From Synechococcales cyanobacterium GL140_1_metabat_312 (GTDB taxonomy: Bacteria > Cyanobacteriota > Cyanobacteriia > Leptolyngbyales > Leptolyngbyaceae): a stretch of 36,967 nucleotides of DNA. The stretch lies in contig JANXWB010000081.1 of assembly GCA_025351345.1 (NCBI GenBank), forward strand, positions 1-36,967. The letters are read 5' to 3'. Position 1 is the stretch's first letter. The number at the start of each line of letters is the position of its first letter. Below the pieces are notes generated by a model, which had not been told where the DNA came from, made no database searches, and saw only the letters and a program-made list of their open reading frames with translations. Below, one piece after another: positions 9,403 to 19,669 of the stretch. A program made the translations under genes and the position numbers.

Positions 9403-10594
9403 ATGTTCAACGATCGCCGGATAGAAGTCCAGAATAGAATGATCTTGCAGTCGGTAAAATACATGTTGTTCTTGCTAACGACAGTTCTACATAATGCTGA
9501 TTGCCGCATCATAACAATTCTCGGAATGGGTGGTATGGGTAAAACCTCTTTTGCGATCAAACTTGCCCAAGAGATTCAAGAAGAATTTGATTTTGTGATT
9601 TGGCGATCGCTACGAGATACTATGCCCATTGACGAATATCTAATAACATTAATTAAGTTTTTTTCACAGCAACAGGAAACCGAACTTCCTGATAACATCG
9701 GCGGTAAAATCTCGCGATTAATCGAACTATTAAAGCGATCGCGTTGTTTGATGATCCTCGATAATTTTGAAACTATCTTACAAGATGGCAAACAGTCGGG
9801 AACCTATCGCAAAGGCTATGAGATGTATGGCGAACTGCTGAAGCGAGTGGGGGAAATTGCTCATCAAAGCTGCCTAATAGTCACTAGTCGCGAAAAACCT
9901 CAAGAAATTGCCTTAATGGAAGGCGATCGTTTGTTCGTACGGACGATGCCTCTGGCGGGATTAGACCTAGACGCAGGACAGCATATTCTCGATGACAAGG
10001 GATTGCATACAGTCGGAGATGATCTGGAACGGTTGAGAGTTCATTATCGTGGTAATCCCTTAGCCCTGAAGATGGCAGCGAATGCAATTCAAGATTTATT
10101 TGCGGGGGATATTTCTCAATTTCTGCAACAGGGCAATTTTGCTTTTAATGGTATTGGAGCGTTAATTCAGCAACAATGCGATCGCCTGTCAAAGCTTTGG
10201 AGCGTTAATTCAGCAACAATGCGATCGCCTGTCAAAGCTAGAGCGATCTATTATGAATTGGCTAGCTATTAACCGCGAACCTGTCACTGTCGCAGAGTTA
10301 AAACTGGATTTGGCGATCGAACTTCCTCTATCAAAACTGATCGAAGCAATAGAATCTCTGCTTTGGCGGAGTTTGATTGAGAACAGTGCGCTTGGTTTCA
10401 CGCTACAGCCTGTAGTAATGGAATCCGTGACAGAATCTCTAATTGAAGGTGTTGTCTAAGAAATATTATCAGAACAACCGCAGTTATTTCTTAGTCATGC
10501 ATTGATTAAGGATGAGTCAAAAGACTATATTCGCGACAGTCAGATTCGAGTGATTCTCAAGCCACTCTGCGATCGTCTGATTAAATCTGATTAA
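9403..10594 (+). pseudogene. NB-ARC (STAND) ATPase relic, disrupted
   Basis: Remnant of an NB-ARC/WD40-type signalling ATPase. Still visible are the P-loop ILGMGGMGKTSF (about nt 9521), the Walker B-like LMILDNFE, a VTSREKP sensor segment and the GNPLALKM motif. Three lesions are seen: a 43-bp perfect tandem duplication (10154-10196 = 10197-10239) that shifts the frame; an in-frame TAA at 10457-10459, after which matching sequence continues (HALIKD..KDYIRDSQIRVILKP) to 10594; and loss of both the N-terminal domain and the whole WD40 part. Deleting one duplicate copy restores a single frame from 9403 to 10459. Intact relatives exceed 1000 residues. Confidence 0.88.
10154..10239 (+). repeat. 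43-bp perfect tandem duplication
   Basis: Positions 10154-10196 and 10197-10239 are identical, back to back, starting TTGGAGCGTTAATTCAG and including a GCGATCGC-type site. The unit length is not a multiple of three, so it frameshifts the ATPase relic. The perfect identity suggests a recent event. Confidence 0.97.
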
Positions 10595-10862: not shown

Positions 10863-11243
10863 ATGATCAGTTTAATTTCCAAGACAATTTCAAAGATTAG
10901 TTACTTTATTAGCAAGTTTCAGGTAAAGCAGTTCTTACCGATCGTCATTGTAGGTCTGATGCTGTCGGCGACCAATAGAAGCCCGTCTCTATCTAACCCA
11001 GATTTGTCAAGTAAAAAATCGGTCGATCGAATAAACGATCTAGTCCAGACAGAAAACTCTGAAAGACCTAAAACAACTAATGAATGGGATAAGCAGGCTG
11101 ACGAAACTAAAGATCGTCCTGGCGAAAAAATGAAGAGAATTGGCGAACAGTCGGCAGATGCAGTTAAAGAATTTGGTTCAATGTATGGAGACGTAGTTGA
11201 AAGAAGTAGTACTGAATTGCGTAACAATACTGAAAAACGTTAG
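10863..11243 (+). CDS. Small membrane-anchored hydrophilic protein, probable stress protein
   Basis: 126 residues. The N-terminus (to about residue 38) carries a basic stretch then FLPIVIVGLMLSA, a signal or anchor segment. The rest is a charged, probably helical tail: ERPKTTNEWDKQADETKDRP, GEKMKRIGEQSADAVKEFGS, then YGDVVERSSTELRNNTEKR. This style (Glu/Lys/Ala-rich amphipathic repeats behind a signal) resembles cyanobacterial low-temperature-induced or LEA-like proteins, but I cannot name the family. It lies 152 bp upstream of the glycosyltransferase cassette and is followed by a hairpin, so it is probably a separate transcript. Confidence 0.65.
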   Translation: MISLISKTISKISYFISKFQVKQFLPIVIVGLMLSATNRSPSLSNPDLSSKKSVDRINDLVQTENSERPKTTNEWDKQADETKDRPGEKMKRIGEQSADAVKEFGSMYGDVVERSSTELRNNTEKR

Positions 11244-11395: not shown

Positions 11396-12916
11396 ATGAA
11401 CCAAAAAGGGAAGAGACATTCTGCGCCAAACAGTGTTAATCCAGGTGTTAATTCAACCGTGGGATCGATTGCGAGTTTGTCAACTTCAACAGAAAGCAGT
11501 CAAAACCATCCGTCACCGAAATCTTGGACTACGACAACACATCACCCATTAAAATCCCTAAATTTTCTACCTGACGATGAGCTTTCAAACTTCAACAACT
11601 CTTCCCTAGGCTGTAATCAATCTCATAGTAATGTCGCAATCAGCAGTACTCCCGCGAAAATAGAACTTTATCGCCCTCTAGTTCAAGTTCCACCCCTGCC
11701 TGAATGTGAAATATGTGTGGTTCTTCCTGTCCGAAATGAGTCTCAATTACTAGAAAAATGTTTGTTGAGTTTAGCTAATCAAACTGATTTTCAAGGACAG
11801 CCACTAGATTCAAACACATATGAGATTATATTACTAGCAAACAACTGTACAGATGATTCAGTTACGATCGCCCAGCGATTTTCAGAGCAGCACCCAAGCT
11901 CAAGGCTTCATATTGTTGAACAAGTATTTCCTCCTTCAGAGTCATATATTGGTCATGTACGACAAATTTTAATGGACGAAGCTTACCATCGTCTCGCAAG
12001 CCTAGGGTTGGCTGGCTTAACGGGGGAGCAAGGTGTTATTGCTTCGACCGATAGTGATTCGATTGTTTCATTCAATTGGATTGCCGCAACGCGTTTAGAA
12101 ATCTCACGGGGTGCTGATGCGGTAGGAGGACGAATCGTAGCAGATACTACAAGCTGTAAAGCCTTAGATCCTAAGGTGAGAATGCGCTATCTGCTGGGCG
12201 ATCGTTATCATCAGTTAATTGCTGAACTAGAATCCTATTTAGATCCTAATCCTAATGACTGCTGGCCTCGCCATACTCAACACTACGGCGCAAGTCTAGC
12301 GGTTACTGCCCAAATGTATTACCAAGCGGGTGGAATGCCAAAGGTCAGGACTCCAGAAGATGTGGCGTTTTATCGAGCTTTACTTAGGGTCGGTGCTCGG
12401 TTTCGCCATAGCCCACTGGTACAGGTGACGACTTCGGCTCGGCAGACCGTCCGAACAGCGGGCGGTTTTGCTGAACAGCTTAATCAATGGGAATCGATCG
12501 GATCTCAGCAAGCATTTTTGGTAGAGTCTGCTGCTGCAATTGAAACTCGACTCCAAACTCGACAGCAACTGCGTGCCCTATGGCAAAGTATTCTCCAGGG
12601 ATATCAACCTATAACTAAAGATGTCGCTGTTTATGCCAATAGCCTAGGCATTAATGAACAATGGCTATGGGAAGAACTAAAACGACCTCAGACGTTTGAC
12701 TTACTGTTTGAAACTATTAAAGAGAAGCAGCACTTTGGAGTGTGGCAAAAAAAATGGCCGTTGGTAGATTTAAAACTGGCCCTCTTTGATCTTAATAGCC
12801 GCTTAAAATTCCTGCGATCGCAGCCTCTATTAGACGAGTTCAATGAGTTTAGGGATAGGGATCCTTTATATTCAGAACACAGTGATGTTCATCATACAAC
12901 CCAGAGCTGGAGATAA
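11396..12916 (+). CDS. Glycosyltransferase family 2 (first gene of the four-gene cassette)
   Basis: 506 residues, predicted cytoplasmic, GT-A fold; transfers a sugar from a nucleotide donor to an unknown acceptor. After an unusual, disordered Ser/Asn/Thr-rich N-terminal extension of about 100 residues, the GT2 core begins with ICVVLPVRNESQLLEKCL (about 105) and IILLANNCTDDS. The metal/donor site is probably STDSDS (about 217-222), and HYGASLAVTAQMY followed by TPEDVAFYRAL (about 318) gives the acceptor-side acidic motif. No membrane helices, so it is not a processive synthase. AAAGGA precedes the ATG by about 10 nt. The next gene starts 6 bp after its stop, so the genes are cotranscribed. Confidence 0.9.
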   Translation: MNQKGKRHSAPNSVNPGVNSTVGSIASLSTSTESSQNHPSPKSWTTTTHHPLKSLNFLPDDELSNFNNSSLGCNQSHSNVAISSTPAKIELYRPLVQVPPLPECEICVVLPVRNESQLLEKCLLSLANQTDFQGQPLDSNTYEIILLANNCTDDSVTIAQRFSEQHPSSRLHIVEQVFPPSESYIGHVRQILMDEAYHRLASLGLAGLTGEQGVIASTDSDSIVSFNWIAATRLEISRGADAVGGRIVADTTSCKALDPKVRMRYLLGDRYHQLIAELESYLDPNPNDCWPRHTQHYGASLAVTAQMYYQAGGMPKVRTPEDVAFYRALLRVGARFRHSPLVQVTTSARQTVRTAGGFAEQLNQWESIGSQQAFLVESAAAIETRLQTRQQLRALWQSILQGYQPITKDVAVYANSLGINEQWLWEELKRPQTFDLLFETIKEKQHFGVWQKKWPLVDLKLALFDLNSRLKFLRSQPLLDEFNEFRDRDPLYSEHSDVHHTTQSWR

Positions 12917-12922
12917 TTAACT

Positions 12923-14197
12923 ATGACGTTTGTAGCAGGAAACTTTAATGCAAAATCTATAAATACATCTAACCTATCTTACCGAATTACCCCGCAGCCC
13001 CAAACCGTAAATGTTTCAGGCTGTTCCTCTTTAGCTAAAGCATTTGCCTGTGTCGATGCGATCGCTGATTATTGCACAGTCAACGCTGCTGAGATTGATT
13101 GTGAGGGAGCGTTTCCAATTCAGGAATTTAAGCAGATTGCGGAGGCAGGATTATTAGCTGTTCCTCTTATGCCTAATTTGGGGGGACTTGGTTTAGGCAT
13201 TGATGCGAGATTTACCCATGAACTTTTGCTAATGCTCAAAAGAATGGGGTGGGGAAACCTAGTGGTGGGACGAATTTTTGAAGGTCATGTCAATGCGCTC
13301 CAGTTGATTCAAACTTTTGCCACAAAAGAGCAAATCGAACAGTTTGCCCAAGATGCGCGCGATCGTCACAAAATTTTTGGAGTTTGGAACGCGGAAGCTA
13401 ATGATGGCGTTAAAGTGATTCCTCTAGATACCGATCGGTATCAACTTCAGGGCAGCAAAACATTTTGTTCGGGTTCAGGGTTTGTGGAGCGACCCTTTGT
13501 GAATGGGATTTTGCCTGATGGCGGTTGGCAAATGTGCATTGTCCCCATGGAACAGGTCACTACTATCAGTGATCCAAGCTGGTGGAACCCTTCAGGAATG
13601 CAGGCTACTGCTAGCTATAAAGTTGATTTTAGTCAGGTAGAGCTGAGTAAACAATTCATCGTTGCTGCACCCGGAGACTACAATCGTCAGCCTTGGTTAA
13701 CGGTCGGTTCAATTCGCTTTGTGGCTGTTCAGTTGGGGGGCGCAGAGGCATTGTTTGATGCAACCCGTCGCTATCTTCACAGTCTAGGCCGGACTAACGA
13801 TCCCTATCAGGAGAATAGATTAGGACAAATGGCGATCGCAATTGAAAGCGGTAATCTTTGGCTTAAGGGCGCATCGGACCGAATTGCTACCTACGCTCCG
13901 ACGTTTGGGGGAGACTGTAACCAAACCCATTCAGACTGCGATCGTTTGGTTACTTATATCAATATGGCCCGCACTGCAATTGAAGAAATCTGTATGGATG
14001 TGATTCAACTCTGTCAACGATCGGTCGGAACGCGGGGTTTACTGCCGCCTTATCCCATGGAACGGATCATTCGAGATTTGAGCCTTTATCTGCGTCAGCC
14101 TGGATTTGATTCATCGCTTCAATCGGTTGGAAAGTACGCATTTTCGCAGCCTCCTGAACGATTCATCAATTGGGATAAACGCGATCATGATGAATAG
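12923..14197 (+). CDS. Acyl-CoA-dehydrogenase-fold flavoprotein lacking the usual catalytic Glu
   Basis: 424 residues with the three-part ACAD layout: N-terminal helices (about 30-140), a beta domain (FGVWNAEANDGVKV, GSKTFCSGSGFVERPFVNG) and C-terminal helices. Where classical acyl-CoA dehydrogenases carry the catalytic YEG motif after a conserved RD, this protein reads RDLSLYLRQPGFDSS; by hand alignment the Glu position is Pro. It may be an ACAD-fold oxygenase or N-oxidase instead, as in amino-sugar nitrososynthases, but this is inference. It follows the glycosyltransferase by 6 bp and its last codons overlap the start of the deacetylase gene (ATG at 14187). Confidence 0.85.
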   Translation: MTFVAGNFNAKSINTSNLSYRITPQPQTVNVSGCSSLAKAFACVDAIADYCTVNAAEIDCEGAFPIQEFKQIAEAGLLAVPLMPNLGGLGLGIDARFTHELLLMLKRMGWGNLVVGRIFEGHVNALQLIQTFATKEQIEQFAQDARDRHKIFGVWNAEANDGVKVIPLDTDRYQLQGSKTFCSGSGFVERPFVNGILPDGGWQMCIVPMEQVTTISDPSWWNPSGMQATASYKVDFSQVELSKQFIVAAPGDYNRQPWLTVGSIRFVAVQLGGAEALFDATRRYLHSLGRTNDPYQENRLGQMAIAIESGNLWLKGASDRIATYAPTFGGDCNQTHSDCDRLVTYINMARTAIEEICMDVIQLCQRSVGTRGLLPPYPMERIIRDLSLYLRQPGFDSSLQSVGKYAFSQPPERFINWDKRDHDE

Positions 14198-14934
14198 CAA
14201 TCCTTTTGCCTGTCCTCAGTTCTTACCTGTGCTATCGATCGCCGATATTTCGGTTGAACCCGTTTTAATAGTTGCACCCCATCCTGATGATGAATGTTTA
14301 GGCTGTGGTGGCGCAATTGCATTGTTACGATCGCACCGATATCAAGTCCAAATTTTAGTGATGAGTGATGGCACAAAATCTCATCCCAATTCAATCCATT
14401 ACGCTGCACCGCGTTTAAAGCAATTGCGCGAATCAGAAACCCTCGCTGCTATCTATGGCCCACTTGAATGTTGGTCAGTCTTGTATTAGATTTATGCAAA
14501 TGCCAGATGGCGCAATCCCAACTGCTGGATCAACAGACTTTGAGACATCAGTGAATGAATGCCAAAAGTATTTGATAAGTGTAAATCCAAAAATCATTTT
14601 TGTGCCCTATCGATATGATCCCCATCCTGATCACCGAGCGACTTGGGAAATTATTCAGACTGCGATTCTGCGATCGGGACTTTTCCCAAGATGGCTAGAG
14701 TATCCTATCTGGGACTGGGATCCAACTCAGCGGCAGAACCATACCTTAAGCGGTATGAAGACGTGGTGTTTGGATATTTCTGAAGTAGTGGAGCTAAAAC
14801 AGCAATCGATCGACTTATACCGCTCTCAGACTTCTAGCTTAATTGATGATGATCCAGGTGGCTTTCAATTAACTTCAGGAATGTTAAACAAACTTTGCCA
14901 GCCTTTTGAAATTTACTTTGAAATGGAGCAATAA
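14187..14934 (+). pseudogene. PIG-L family deacetylase, split by one frameshift
   Basis: Zinc-dependent N-deacetylase family (relatives: MshB, BshB, PIG-L), acting on N-acetyl amino sugars. The first part (from ATG 14187 or 14190, overlapping the flavoprotein gene) carries the metal motif APHPDDECLGCGG. Homology leaves that frame at about 14453 (ESETLAAI) and resumes one base later, at 14455, with LNVGQSCIRFMQMPDGAIP, continuing through FVPYRYDPHPDHRATW (second metal motif) to the stop at 14934. Dropping one base, for example T14454, gives one smooth protein of about 248 residues. No slippery run is seen, so this is either a true inactivating indel or a sequencing error. Confidence 0.88.
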
Positions 14935-14938
14935 ATTA

Positions 14939-15523
14939 ATGCAACCCTCGCAATCTCTACCCGCTAGTTATTTTGATGCGCTTTATCAAACGGATATTGA
15001 TCCCTGGAAATTTGCCACCAGTGACTATGAGGCTGAGAAATACAGCACCACGATCGCAGCGTTACCCAATGCCCATTACTGTTCTGCGCTAGAAATTGGT
15101 GGTTCGATCGGTGTTCTAACCCAAAAGCTTGCCCTGTACTGCGATTCACTCCTGTCGATTGAGGTGTCTCAATTAGCTCAAAACGAAGCAATTCAAAGAT
15201 GTCAAGCGTTGCCACAGGTTCGCTTCGAGATTATGAGTTTTCCGCAACAGTTTCCAGAGGAATTGTTTGATTTGATTTTAGTCTCGGAAGTCGGATATTA
15301 CTGGGGCCGGGAAGATTTGGAGATCGCACAGCAGCGCATACTGCAACTACTAGAAATCGGCGGTCATTTGCTATTGGTGCATTGGTTGCCGCGATCGCCG
15401 GATTATCCTTTGACGGGCGATGAAGTGCATGAATCATTTTTAAATTTTAGCCCAGCGCAGCTTCAGCATTTAAAGAGTATAAACAATGCTCAGTATCGGC
15501 TGGATTTGTTTCAACGGAAATAA
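14939..15523 (+). CDS. NodS-like SAM-dependent methyltransferase
   Basis: 194 residues from the ATG at 14939, 4 bp after the deacetylase stop. Class I methyltransferase of the NodS type: SYFDALYQTDIDPWKFATSDYE is the family's opening, motif I is ALEIGGSIGVLT (the usual Cys/Gly between the glycines is Gly here), then SIEVSQLA, FDLILVSEVGYYWG and GGHLLLVHWLPRSPDYPLTGDE. NodS N-methylates the deacetylated end sugar of rhizobial Nod factors, so its place behind a deacetylase suggests N-methylation of the amine that the deacetylase exposes. The actual substrate is unknown. Last gene of the cassette. Confidence 0.9.
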   Translation: MQPSQSLPASYFDALYQTDIDPWKFATSDYEAEKYSTTIAALPNAHYCSALEIGGSIGVLTQKLALYCDSLLSIEVSQLAQNEAIQRCQALPQVRFEIMSFPQQFPEELFDLILVSEVGYYWGREDLEIAQQRILQLLEIGGHLLLVHWLPRSPDYPLTGDEVHESFLNFSPAQLQHLKSINNAQYRLDLFQRK

Positions 15524-16006: not shown

Positions 16007-19000
16007 ATGGATATGACTGACGTATTGGCTCCAAAGCTGCCGACCTCCCTGTTTCCAGCCAATGAACCAGAGCGCTTGGAAGCATTGCATCGCTACCACA
16101 TTCTCGATACACCCGCTGAAGTCGCCTTCGATCGGGTCACCAGTCTGGCGGCGCGACTGTTCCAGATGCCCACTGTGCTGATTTCACTAGTAGATGAGTC
16201 GAGAGCTTGGTTTAAGTCGAGCATTGGCTTTGATGCCAGTGAAGTTCCCCGTGATGCCACGCTATGCAGCTTTGCCGTGTTGACCGACGAACTGCTAGTC
16301 GTGTCCGATACCCAACTCGATGAGCGGTTTTTAGGGAATCCCTTCGTGCGGTGCGACCCAGGATTGCGGTTTTATGCAGGTGCGCCCCTGCTCAGTTATG
16401 ACGGCTTCAATCTGGGTACGCTCTGTATGCTCGATACGGTCCCCCACGCCCCCCTCACCCCCGAGCAAGAAGCGACCTTAGTGGATCTGGCTGCGATCGT
16501 GGTAGACGAACTAGAACTCAGGTTGGCAGCGCGGCAGATCGCAAAAGTCGATAGCGCACTGCTAGAAATTACACGCGGCCTATCTACGGTCACGGGTGGC
16601 GAATTTATGAATGCGCTAGTACAGCACCTAGCCAAAATACTCAACACAGATTATGCATACATTGGCTTAATCGGAGGCGACAACCTAAAAATGATGCGAA
16701 CGGTTGCCACTTGCGCTGGTGGTCAGATCGTCGATAATCTGGAATACGCACTCGAAGATACGCCTTGCTGGGAAGTAATCAAACAACGGAGAATTTGCTC
16801 TTACCCGCGTAATGTCCAGTCTTATTTTCCCGATGCTCCGCTGCTTAAACCGCTCCTTGTCGAAAGTTATGTGGCAACGTCCTTCTTTGATGCTCAGGGT
16901 GAGGTGCTGGGAGTATTAGGGGTAATGGATAGTAAACCCTTACAAGATGTGCATCTGGCAGAATCGTTATTGCTGGTTTTTAGCGATCGGATTGCGACGG
17001 AAATCGATCGTCAGCAGGCCAAGCAAGCCCTAGTAGACAGTGAGGAACGGCTGCAACTCGCGATCGGGGGAGCGCACCTAGGCACGTATGATTGGGACTT
17101 AAGTACCGCTCAATTTCTCACGAGTGCTTACTTTAATCAATTGATGGGGCTGGTGCCGGATGAAGAGTTTACCGTAGCAAAGTGGCAAAGCATCCTACAT
17201 CCCGACGATTTGGTCGAGGTCACTACCGGAGTTGAACGAGCACTCTTGGATTCCTCAGATATTACTCAAGAGTATCGGGTAATCTGGCCGGATGGGAGTA
17301 CCCACTGGATTGGTGGTTTCGGACGATTTTATTATGATGATGCAGGTCGGGCCGTGCGGCTGGCGGGCGGGAATATAGAAATTACTGAACGCAAACAAGC
17401 GGAACTAGCCTTAAGAGCCAGTGAAGAACGGTATAAAGCGCTGATTGAGATGACCTCTCAAATTGTGTGGAACACTACTCCTGAGGGAAAGATCCTCCAC
17501 GCCAATGTAGTGCCATTTACCGGAGAGAACCCAGACGAATCTGAGACTAGTGGAGGAGGCTGGATGTGGGCAATCCATCCTGACGATCGCCAGCGGACGG
17601 CTGAGTTATGGGCGTTAGCAGTTACCAATCTGACCCCATTCGAGATCGAACATCGAGTGCGCCGCTGGGATGGCGAATATCGATTGATGAGTGGTCGTGC
17701 CATTCCATTATTCAATGATGATGGGAGCCTGGGCGAATGGGTTGGGATGCATACCGATATTACTGAAATTAGGAAAGATGAGCAAAATCTCCGACGCAGT
17801 GAGGAATTCAATCGGCGAATTTTGGAAAATAATCAAGATTGTATCAAAGTGATAGATCGTGAGGGTCGGCTATTATACATGAACGATGGCGGCAAACGGC
17901 TGTTAGAGATCGATAATTTTGCCGACTACGATCGATCTCTATGGACGAATTTTTGGAATGGGAACGAGCAGGAGCTAGCTCAAGCTGCTTTTAACTCGGC
18001 TCTAGCCGGAACTAGCAGTAGTTTTGAAGGGCAATGTCCGACCGTGACAGGGATCCCAAAATGGTGGGAAGTGAATGTGATTCCCTTGCATGACGAAGAT
18101 GGAAATGTCGATCAAATTCTCTTGATTTCTCACAATTTGACCGAACGGCGAGAAGCAGAAGAGGAACTGCGTCAGAGTCAGCTACTCGCTCAATCCCAAC
18201 TACGGGAAATTGAAGCCATCTATCAGACGGCACCCGTTGGTCTGGCAATTATTGGTGCTGACCTCCGTTTTCAGCGCATCAATGAAAAACTGGCCGAAAT
18301 TAACGGTGTTTCGATCGCCGATCACATCGGGCGTACCGTGCGCGATGTCGTCCCAGATTTAGCCGATGATGCCGAACCGCTACTGCGACAAGTATTAGAG
18401 ACCGGAAAGCCACTCCTGAATCTAGAAATTTGCGGTGAAACGAGTGCTCAGCCAGGAGTTTATCGGACTTGGAACGAAAACTTTTATCCACTTAAGGATA
18501 TCCTTGGACACAGTGTCAGCGTTAGCGTCGTCGTGGAAGAAATTACCGATCGTAAAATTTCCGAAGCAGTTTTAAAAGAAAGTGAAGAGCGATTTCGGAA
18601 TACGTTTGAGCAAGCTGCCGTCGGTATTGCTCATGTTGCGCTAGATGGTCGGTGGTTGCTGGTTAATCCTAAACTCTGCGAAATTTTTGGCTATACAAAA
18701 GCTGAAATCCTCTACGGTTACTTCCAAGATATTACCCATCCTGACGATCTAGCTCAGGATCAGGAAAGCATTCGCCAGATTCTGGCCGATGAAATTCAGG
18801 TAGTCGACTTAGATAAACGGTATATTCATAAACTTGGTCATATCGTCTGGGTTAACGTAAAAGGAATGCTCCGACACGAGGCTTCAGGTGCTCCGGTCTA
18901 TTTTATTGTGTCGATCGAGGATATTACCTATCGTAAACAGGCAGAATTTACCCTCCAATCCCAAGCGGTTCAACTCGCTGAGACTAGCGCCATAGTTGAA

Positions 19001-19669
19001 CTTCGCAATCAAGAGTTAGATCGTTTCTCATATATAGTCTCTCACGATCTAAAAGCCCCATTACGTGGAATTTCTAATCTCGCCACCTGGATTAGTGATG
19101 ACTTACCAGAAACAGTTGATCCAGATGTTCAAGCAAATTTAGAATTGATGCGATCGCGCGTATCCCGTATGGACGGCTTGATCGATGGTTTGCTCAATTA
19201 TGCCAAGGTGGGTAATACTGAGGCAAATTTAGAAACATTTTGTGTCGAGCAGCTACTTTCAGAGATCGTCGATTCGTTGAGCATTCCCGATAGTTTCGTC
19301 GTCGAGCTACCTGCCAAGTTACCGTCCATTACGACCAATCGGGTCTTATTAAGTCAAGTTTTAACAAATTTAATTGGGAATGCTTATAAACATCACGATC
19401 GTCCAGACGGCAAAATTCAAGTCCTTGTTAAGCCTGACGCTGAGATATGGGAGTTTAGTGTCATCGATGATGGTCGGGGGATTGCCCCAGAAAACCAAGC
19501 AAAAGTGTTTGAAATTTTTAAAACAGTGTCGGAGAGCAATAAAAATAATTCTGGAATCGGGCTATCGATCGTCAAGAAGCTCGTGGAAAATCAGGGCGGC
19601 CAAATTAAGCTCGAATCTCAAATCGGCATAGGGACGACGTTTAACTTTACTTGGATCCTTAAGAGTTAA
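16007..19669 (+). CDS. Hybrid-sensor-type histidine kinase, 2 GAF + about 5 PAS domains
   Basis: 1220-residue soluble sensor kinase with no membrane segments, so it senses cytoplasmic signals. Order: GAF1 (about 20-180, beginning ERLEALHRYHILDTPAE), GAF2 (about 190-340), PAS/PAC repeats at about 345-470, 470-595, 600-720, 735-860 and 865-985 (each ending in an ITERKQAE-like linker), a HisKA dimerisation helix with the phospho-acceptor H1013 in YIVSHDLKAPLRG, and a HATPase domain with N box NLIGNAYKHH, DDGRGI and NNSGIGLSI. No receiver domain is present and no response regulator gene lies nearby. No chromophore Cys motif typical of phytochromes was seen. It stands alone as a transcription unit. 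Confidence 0.93.
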   Translation: MDMTDVLAPKLPTSLFPANEPERLEALHRYHILDTPAEVAFDRVTSLAARLFQMPTVLISLVDESRAWFKSSIGFDASEVPRDATLCSFAVLTDELLVVSDTQLDERFLGNPFVRCDPGLRFYAGAPLLSYDGFNLGTLCMLDTVPHAPLTPEQEATLVDLAAIVVDELELRLAARQIAKVDSALLEITRGLSTVTGGEFMNALVQHLAKILNTDYAYIGLIGGDNLKMMRTVATCAGGQIVDNLEYALEDTPCWEVIKQRRICSYPRNVQSYFPDAPLLKPLLVESYVATSFFDAQGEVLGVLGVMDSKPLQDVHLAESLLLVFSDRIATEIDRQQAKQALVDSEERLQLAIGGAHLGTYDWDLSTAQFLTSAYFNQLMGLVPDEEFTVAKWQSILHPDDLVEVTTGVERALLDSSDITQEYRVIWPDGSTHWIGGFGRFYYDDAGRAVRLAGGNIEITERKQAELALRASEERYKALIEMTSQIVWNTTPEGKILHANVVPFTGENPDESETSGGGWMWAIHPDDRQRTAELWALAVTNLTPFEIEHRVRRWDGEYRLMSGRAIPLFNDDGSLGEWVGMHTDITEIRKDEQNLRRSEEFNRRILENNQDCIKVIDREGRLLYMNDGGKRLLEIDNFADYDRSLWTNFWNGNEQELAQAAFNSALAGTSSSFEGQCPTVTGIPKWWEVNVIPLHDEDGNVDQILLISHNLTERREAEEELRQSQLLAQSQLREIEAIYQTAPVGLAIIGADLRFQRINEKLAEINGVSIADHIGRTVRDVVPDLADDAEPLLRQVLETGKPLLNLEICGETSAQPGVYRTWNENFYPLKDILGHSVSVSVVVEEITDRKISEAVLKESEERFRNTFEQAAVGIAHVALDGRWLLVNPKLCEIFGYTKAEILYGYFQDITHPDDLAQDQESIRQILADEIQVVDLDKRYIHKLGHIVWVNVKGMLRHEASGAPVYFIVSIEDITYRKQAEFTLQSQAVQLAETSAIVELRNQELDRFSYIVSHDLKAPLRGISNLATWISDDLPETVDPDVQANLELMRSRVSRMDGLIDGLLNYAKVGNTEANLETFCVEQLLSEIVDSLSIPDSFVVELPAKLPSITTNRVLLSQVLTNLIGNAYKHHDRPDGKIQVLVKPDAEIWEFSVIDDGRGIAPENQAKVFEIFKTVSESNKNNSGIGLSIVKKLVENQGGQIKLESQIGIGTTFNFTWILKS

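Follow-up and report, generated by a model that had tools for sequence, protein, structure and literature searches.

What does a four-gene cassette encoding a glycosyltransferase, an acyl-CoA dehydrogenase (ACAD)-fold flavoprotein, a PIG-L deacetylase and a NodS-like methyltransferase make, and do these genes form a pathway at all? The question is raised by the 36,967-nucleotide window analysed here, the whole of contig C84 in the 3.85-Mb genome (100 contigs) of Synechococcales cyanobacterium GL140_1_metabat_312, a genome that its relatives likewise mark as cyanobacterial. All four genes run in the same direction and are tightly packed at 11396–15523, with a gap of 6 bp between the glycosyltransferase and flavoprotein genes, an overlap of 11 bp (14187–14197) between the flavoprotein and PIG-L genes, and a gap of 4 bp before the methyltransferase gene. 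Comparison with other genomes showed that the four genes are almost certainly a true, widespread and uncharacterised biosynthetic module. The features of the cassette are:

11396–12916, + strand: GT2-type glycosyltransferase, 506 aa (PF00535, 5.7e-10)
12923–14197, + strand: ACAD-fold flavoprotein, 424 aa, group D flavin-monooxygenase-like (PF08028/PF02771; relationship to DszC)
14187–14489, + strand: broken PIG-L, N-terminal part with zinc motif AHPDDE, stop after the frameshift (PF02585, 1.3e-13, profile positions 1–62)
14449–14456, + strand: CTATCTAT at the PIG-L frameshift, four bases apparently duplicated in tandem (DNA comparison with locus L067)
14455–14934, + strand: broken PIG-L, C-terminal part with HPDHR motif, in another frame (PF02585, 3.1e-7, profile positions 65–128)
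14939–15523, + strand: NodS-like S-adenosylmethionine-dependent methyltransferase, 194 aa (PF05401, 4.4e-15)

Recurrence of the four genes across phyla

The gene neighbourhood was examined from two anchors, the flavoprotein and the methyltransferase. For the flavoprotein, one genome per species was scanned, at least 565 relatives were confirmed and the best 80 were kept; these came mostly from Cyanobacteria, together with Hymenobacter, Methylobacterium, one Beijerinckiaceae and one Puniceicoccaceae genome. Among these best 80 loci the methyltransferase was present in 78, in 77 of them no more than 3.5 kb away, and within about 20 kb PIG-L was found in 70 and GT2 in 54, with contig ends explaining some of the absences. 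The methyltransferase, searched in evenly drawn genomes, matched 7 of 194 Cyanobacteria (4%), 49 of 398 Pseudomonadota at E ≤ 1e-15, 10 of 247 Bacteroidota (five of them strong, 2%) and 1 of 145 Verrucomicrobiota, the last being the search-centre genome itself. Among the 34 highest-ranked Pseudomonadota loci, 32 had the flavoprotein gene within 6 kb (E ≤ 1e-57), 27 had PIG-L and 26 a glycosyltransferase; non-iterated profiles were used for these counts, and profiles iterated on the loci gave nearly the same result. The module is present in about 8% of the sampled Pseudomonadota (32–34/398). All four high-scoring Bacteroidota loci that were fetched were complete, and two weak methyltransferase matches had no partner of any kind.

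Altogether the module was found in Cyanobacteria, Pseudomonadota, Bacteroidota, Verrucomicrobiota, Deinococcota and Actinomycetota, and plasmid copies add Deinococcus, Acinetobacter, Legionella, Pandoraea, Bradyrhizobium, Streptomyces, Kitasatospora and Rubrobacter. Pairwise protein distances of the four genes were correlated at r 0.90–0.96 over 98 loci, as co-inheritance would give, although shared species history contributes to these values. A preliminary description of this DNA had named the four families, their coordinates, the gaps and the overlap, all of which were exact by Pfam and a check of the open reading frames (ORFs), and the recurrence of the families together in unrelated phyla, which it named as a check, was borne out from both anchors. 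Gene order is constant in part: the succession of flavoprotein, PIG-L and methyltransferase is nearly fixed, but the glycosyltransferase gene may lie upstream, downstream or convergent. The preliminary description also took the genes as one transcript, which their tight packing makes likely, although promoter and terminator scans at the cassette gave no signals above chance.

Some copies are elaborated. Four Pseudomonadota loci (L129, L130, L133 and L134) carry a second PIG-L gene after the glycosyltransferase gene; these cassettes adjoin genes of the maltooligosyl-trehalose type (TreY and MalQ). On a Deinococcus radiodurans plasmid (L016:6765–9104) the flavoprotein is lengthened at its N-terminus by a further domain of about 395 aa, and the cassette is interrupted by a DEAD/DEAH helicase gene that lies on the other strand. 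We considered a fusion of glycosyltransferase and flavoprotein here and do not claim one, the fused part having no Pfam match and only weak resemblance to glycosidases.

The four enzymes and the chemistry they suggest

For the flavoprotein the fold by itself is not decisive, as true dehydrogenases match the model at Z-scores of about 35–37. The closest solved relatives by sequence and fold were the group D flavin monooxygenases DszC, TdsC and MsuC, with DszC the best by sequence (6e-30) and matching the fold at Z 39.2 (root-mean-square deviation 2.6 over 366 residues); KijD3 matched at Z 36.5. Conserved residues include H122, W155, K179-x(3)-S183-G184 and R384-D385 ... R391-Q392. Catalytic glutamates were located with reference motifs of medium-chain acyl-CoA dehydrogenase (MCAD) and isovaleryl-CoA dehydrogenase (IVD). 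By motif alignment (PMERIIRDLSLYLRQP / PVEKLMRDAKIYQIYE), the place of MCAD Glu376 is occupied by Pro393, with Pro or Ala in close relatives and no Glu in alignment A8, and the place of IVD Glu254 by Ile264, beside R265, with Ile or other non-acidic residues and no Glu in alignments A1 or A8. The missing glutamates together with the nearest relatives led us to reject an acyl-CoA dehydrogenase proper and make a monooxygenase the better reading, so that, judged from these residues and relatives, the flavoprotein is slightly more likely than not a monooxygenase that would carry out an oxidation step. It scores far below the cut-offs for DszC (51.8 versus 850 bits) and SfnB (58 versus 431 bits). 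It shares with DszC, TdsC, MsuC, KijD3 and DnmZ the full-length fold and the best sequence relationship, but it differs from them in having no fixed flavin reductase partner; a ferredoxin-reductase-like gene lies within the cassette in Rubrobacter only.

For the deacetylase, the closest solved structures were of diacetylchitobiose deacetylase, with which the cassette protein shares the PIG-L family and conserved zinc motifs, but unlike that enzyme it belongs to a biosynthetic-looking gene set; other relatives include glycopeptide and other tailoring deacetylases. The methyltransferase is nearest to NodS and the phosphoethanolamine N-methyltransferases, its closest solved relatives being an uncharacterised methyltransferase (4ISC, 6e-41) and then NodS (3OFJ/3OFK, 1e-26). 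It scored 56.5 bits against the superfamily model PF05401 (cut-off 24 bits) and 62.5 bits (4e-17) against the NodS equivalog NF041650 (cut-off 300), which places it in the superfamily and outside the equivalog. PIG-L and methyltransferase are fused into one protein in three loci, from Gloeobacterales (L023), Pseudomonadota (L152) and Bacteroidota (L158), and in 11 of the 80 flavoprotein-anchored loci, these 11 being cyanobacterial, a HAD-phosphatase-like domain is fused to the methyltransferase. In Rubrobacter the PIG-L position is held by a polysaccharide deacetylase with NodB as its top NCBIfam match (113 bits, cut-off 240), in a tight run with the flavoprotein, the methyltransferase, a ferredoxin-reductase-like flavoprotein and a glycosyltransferase; no second replacement of this type was seen among the fetched loci, so that Rubrobacter is a single case. 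The fusions, this replacement and the closest solved relatives favour amino-sugar deacetylation and N-methylation, and the cassette probably performs the N-methylation of an amino sugar.

The glycosyltransferase was modelled by AlphaFold (mean predicted local distance difference test score 80.2) with a disordered N-terminus (about residues 1–85), a soluble GT-A domain and a helical C-terminal part. Its best fold matches were of GT-A type, WrtF at Z 22.1 and TarS at Z 21.1; a DxD motif (STDSDS, D219/D221) and an ED motif (E321 D322) are present, and these residues together with N149-N150-C151 are invariant across 30 aligned sequences. The model predicts a soluble GT-A enzyme without the membrane region of NodC. 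The mycofactocin glycosyltransferase MftF was considered and rejected (26.4 bits against TIGR03965, cut-off 280 bits).

Nod-factor synthesis by NodC, NodB and NodS likewise combines a GT2-type enzyme, an N-acetylglucosamine deacetylase and a NodS-family N-methyltransferase, and Rubrobacter even supplies a NodB-like deacetylase. The cassette differs from it in the predicted solubility of its glycosyltransferase, in the PIG-L rather than NodB fold of the deacetylase in nearly all copies, and in an added flavin monooxygenase-like gene. No NodA, NodB or membrane NodC family was found among the ORFs of the window scanned with Pfam, and by that measure this is no Nod-factor locus. The likeness to NodC drawn in the preliminary description is not supported, given the predicted soluble fold. 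Its suggestion of an N-methylated amino-sugar product has been strengthened by the fusions and the Rubrobacter replacement, and the words "possibly oxidised" agree with a monooxygenase-like flavoprotein.

Candidate product, stress setting and alternatives

Taken together, we lean towards a horizontally spread, self-contained module for a small modified amino-sugar glycoside as the best explanation overall. In such a pathway, the soluble GT-A enzyme would transfer an N-acetylhexosamine, the presumed donor sugar, to an acceptor; the PIG-L deacetylase, NodB-type in one case, would strip the N-acetyl group and free the amine; the NodS-like enzyme would methylate the freed amine; and the flavoprotein, acting as a group D flavin monooxygenase and not as a dehydrogenase, would oxidise the product or a precursor. 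That a compact module occurs in several phyla and on plasmids (Deinococcus, Acinetobacter, Actinomycetota) and yet lacks a product in the literature searched suggests a metabolite not recognised so far, whose chemistry can be sought with the fusions and the NodB-type replacement as guides.

The function of the product was approached through the neighbouring genes. Stress markers (catalase, Ku, LigD and OtsA/B) were fixed from the plasmid loci and then tested on separate Pseudomonadota loci, where they adjoined the cassette in 9 of 32 loci; of 40 arbitrary windows drawn from those genomes, one contained such a marker (Fisher p 0.004). A widened set, adding TreY, GlgX, MalQ, Mn-catalase, sucrose-phosphate synthase, DUF892 and DUF421, gave 19/32 versus 1/40, a count that is biased since these markers were chosen after seeing the loci. 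From these neighbours, it is about evenly balanced whether the product helps cells to survive drying or oxidative stress, and the link to catalase, trehalose and non-homologous end-joining (NHEJ) genes makes that role directly testable. We advance only tentatively, as a possibility of less than even likelihood, that the product belongs to a class of stress metabolites not described before, in which a glucosamine glycoside is N-methylated (perhaps trimethylated and betaine-like) and oxidised with the help of flavin. Bacteria of six or more phyla that tolerate desiccation and radiation would make it by this mobile four-gene pathway, and it would act alongside trehalose, catalase and NHEJ repair as a compatible solute or antioxidant. 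A search of the open-access literature on trimethylglucosamine biosynthesis returned nothing relevant.

Several observations weigh against an oxidised, N-methylated amino-sugar glycoside with a stress role. The donor of the glycosyltransferase is not predictable from these data; the nearest solved relatives of the flavoprotein share only about 20% identity with it, at which level chemistry assigned by homology is weak; and other amides are also possible substrates of PIG-L proteins. The module is not always intact, as two methyltransferase loci (L127 and L145) stand alone without cassette partners and in Methylobacterium PIG-L lies away from the flavoprotein and methyltransferase genes (about 10 kb, or on another contig). 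No product or metabolite for this gene set appeared in the open-access literature searched, an absence that is weak evidence. Beside the cyanobacterial cassettes no stress gene recurs (pre-specified markers in 1/80), and the stress role therefore rests on the Pseudomonadota and plasmid loci.

Three other products have to be weighed against the small glycoside. The enzymes might modify a cell-surface glycan or glycolipid, the glycosyltransferase decorating a polymer or lipid and the other enzymes deacetylating, methylating and oxidising the sugar in place. The wall- and lipid-glycan enzymes TarS and WrtF among the best fold matches, and the extra glycosyltransferases (GT4, GT-A) adjoining the cassette in several loci of alphaproteobacterial type, a Novosphingobium and a Sphingobium plasmid among them, would fit this; however, such extra genes occur in just 5–7 of 49 non-cyanobacterial loci, all four enzymes appear soluble, and the flanks show no recurrent gene for export, a polymerase or a lipid carrier, no family besides the four exceeding 13 of 97 loci and positions being scattered. 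Since nothing else is conserved beside the cyanobacterial cassettes, these are not part of a conserved exopolysaccharide or glycolipid locus. We regard surface-glycan modification as unlikely. A secondary metabolite, such as an antibiotic or signal that carries its amine on something other than an amino sugar, with PIG-L cutting a different amide, seems more doubtful: no polyketide synthase, nonribosomal peptide synthetase, resistance or regulator gene recurs beside the module, and a NodB-type enzyme stands at the PIG-L position in Rubrobacter, even though ACAD-fold oxygenases (KijD3, DnmZ) tailor antibiotics and glycopeptide and other tailoring deacetylases are among the PIG-L relatives.

A low-molecular-weight thiol of the bacillithiol or mycothiol type is highly improbable. 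MshA/MshB and BshA/BshB also place a glycosyltransferase before a PIG-L deacetylase, and the fused HAD-phosphatase-like domain of some cassette copies recalls the phosphatase step that accompanies MshA and MshB. The cassette, by contrast, has no recurrent cysteine ligase beside it, and its N-methyltransferase and monooxygenase-like flavoprotein are additions that thiol pathways do not need. The two PIG-L halves, scored separately, reached at most 40.5 bits, far under the BshB1 (TIGR04001, 182.5) and BshB2 (TIGR04000, 195.25) cut-offs.

The broken deacetylase gene and its surroundings

The preliminary description read PIG-L as one gene and missed that in this genome it occupies two frames, 14187–14489 with the AHPDDE half and 14455–14934 with the HPDHR half. 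The junction CTATCTAT is four bases longer than the corresponding DNA of the nearest relative (L067), and these extra bases account for the change of frame; in all relatives examined PIG-L is a single open frame. Both halves pass the PF02585 gathering score of 28.2 bits (52 and 31.4 bits), the zinc motifs of the family (PHPDDE/HPDHR) are seen in the cassette PIG-L alignment (A5), and the profile built from it matches 14443–14928 at 226.7 bits. Unless the assembly is wrong, this copy is probably inactive or damaged, with the pathway probably switched off by the 4-bp frameshift, and the preliminary view that the cassette makes its product in this cyanobacterium is not supported. The divergence of the PIG-L protein is only mildly above that expected from the other three genes (rank 5/53, about 1.5 standard deviations), so that the break is either recent or an assembly error. 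This mild divergence and the kept motifs would suit an assembly error, with PIG-L intact and working in this genome, but a perfect 4-bp tandem duplication is typical of slippage mutation and unusual as a short-read error, and we consider that explanation rather unlikely. The genome holds two further, more distant PIG-L genes, which the cassette profile scores at 171 and 163 bits. A PIG-L gene in the same genome (L001, G000:C77, about 8.9 kb) directly follows a GT2-like gene, a possible second glycosyltransferase and deacetylase pair.

Directly downstream of the cassette, 16007–19669 encodes a GAF/multi-PAS histidine kinase of 1220 aa, a common type that is not conserved beside the cassette. 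Upstream, 10863–11243 ends 152 bp before the cassette and encodes a 126-aa protein whose N-terminus is signal-like and whose C-terminal half is charged and resembles hydrophilins; neither Pfam nor NCBIfam gave a match, and none of the fetched loci contains a relative. Further upstream, 9403–10272 encodes a STAND/NB-ARC-NACHT nucleoside triphosphatase of just 289 aa without further domains, which may be a decayed gene.

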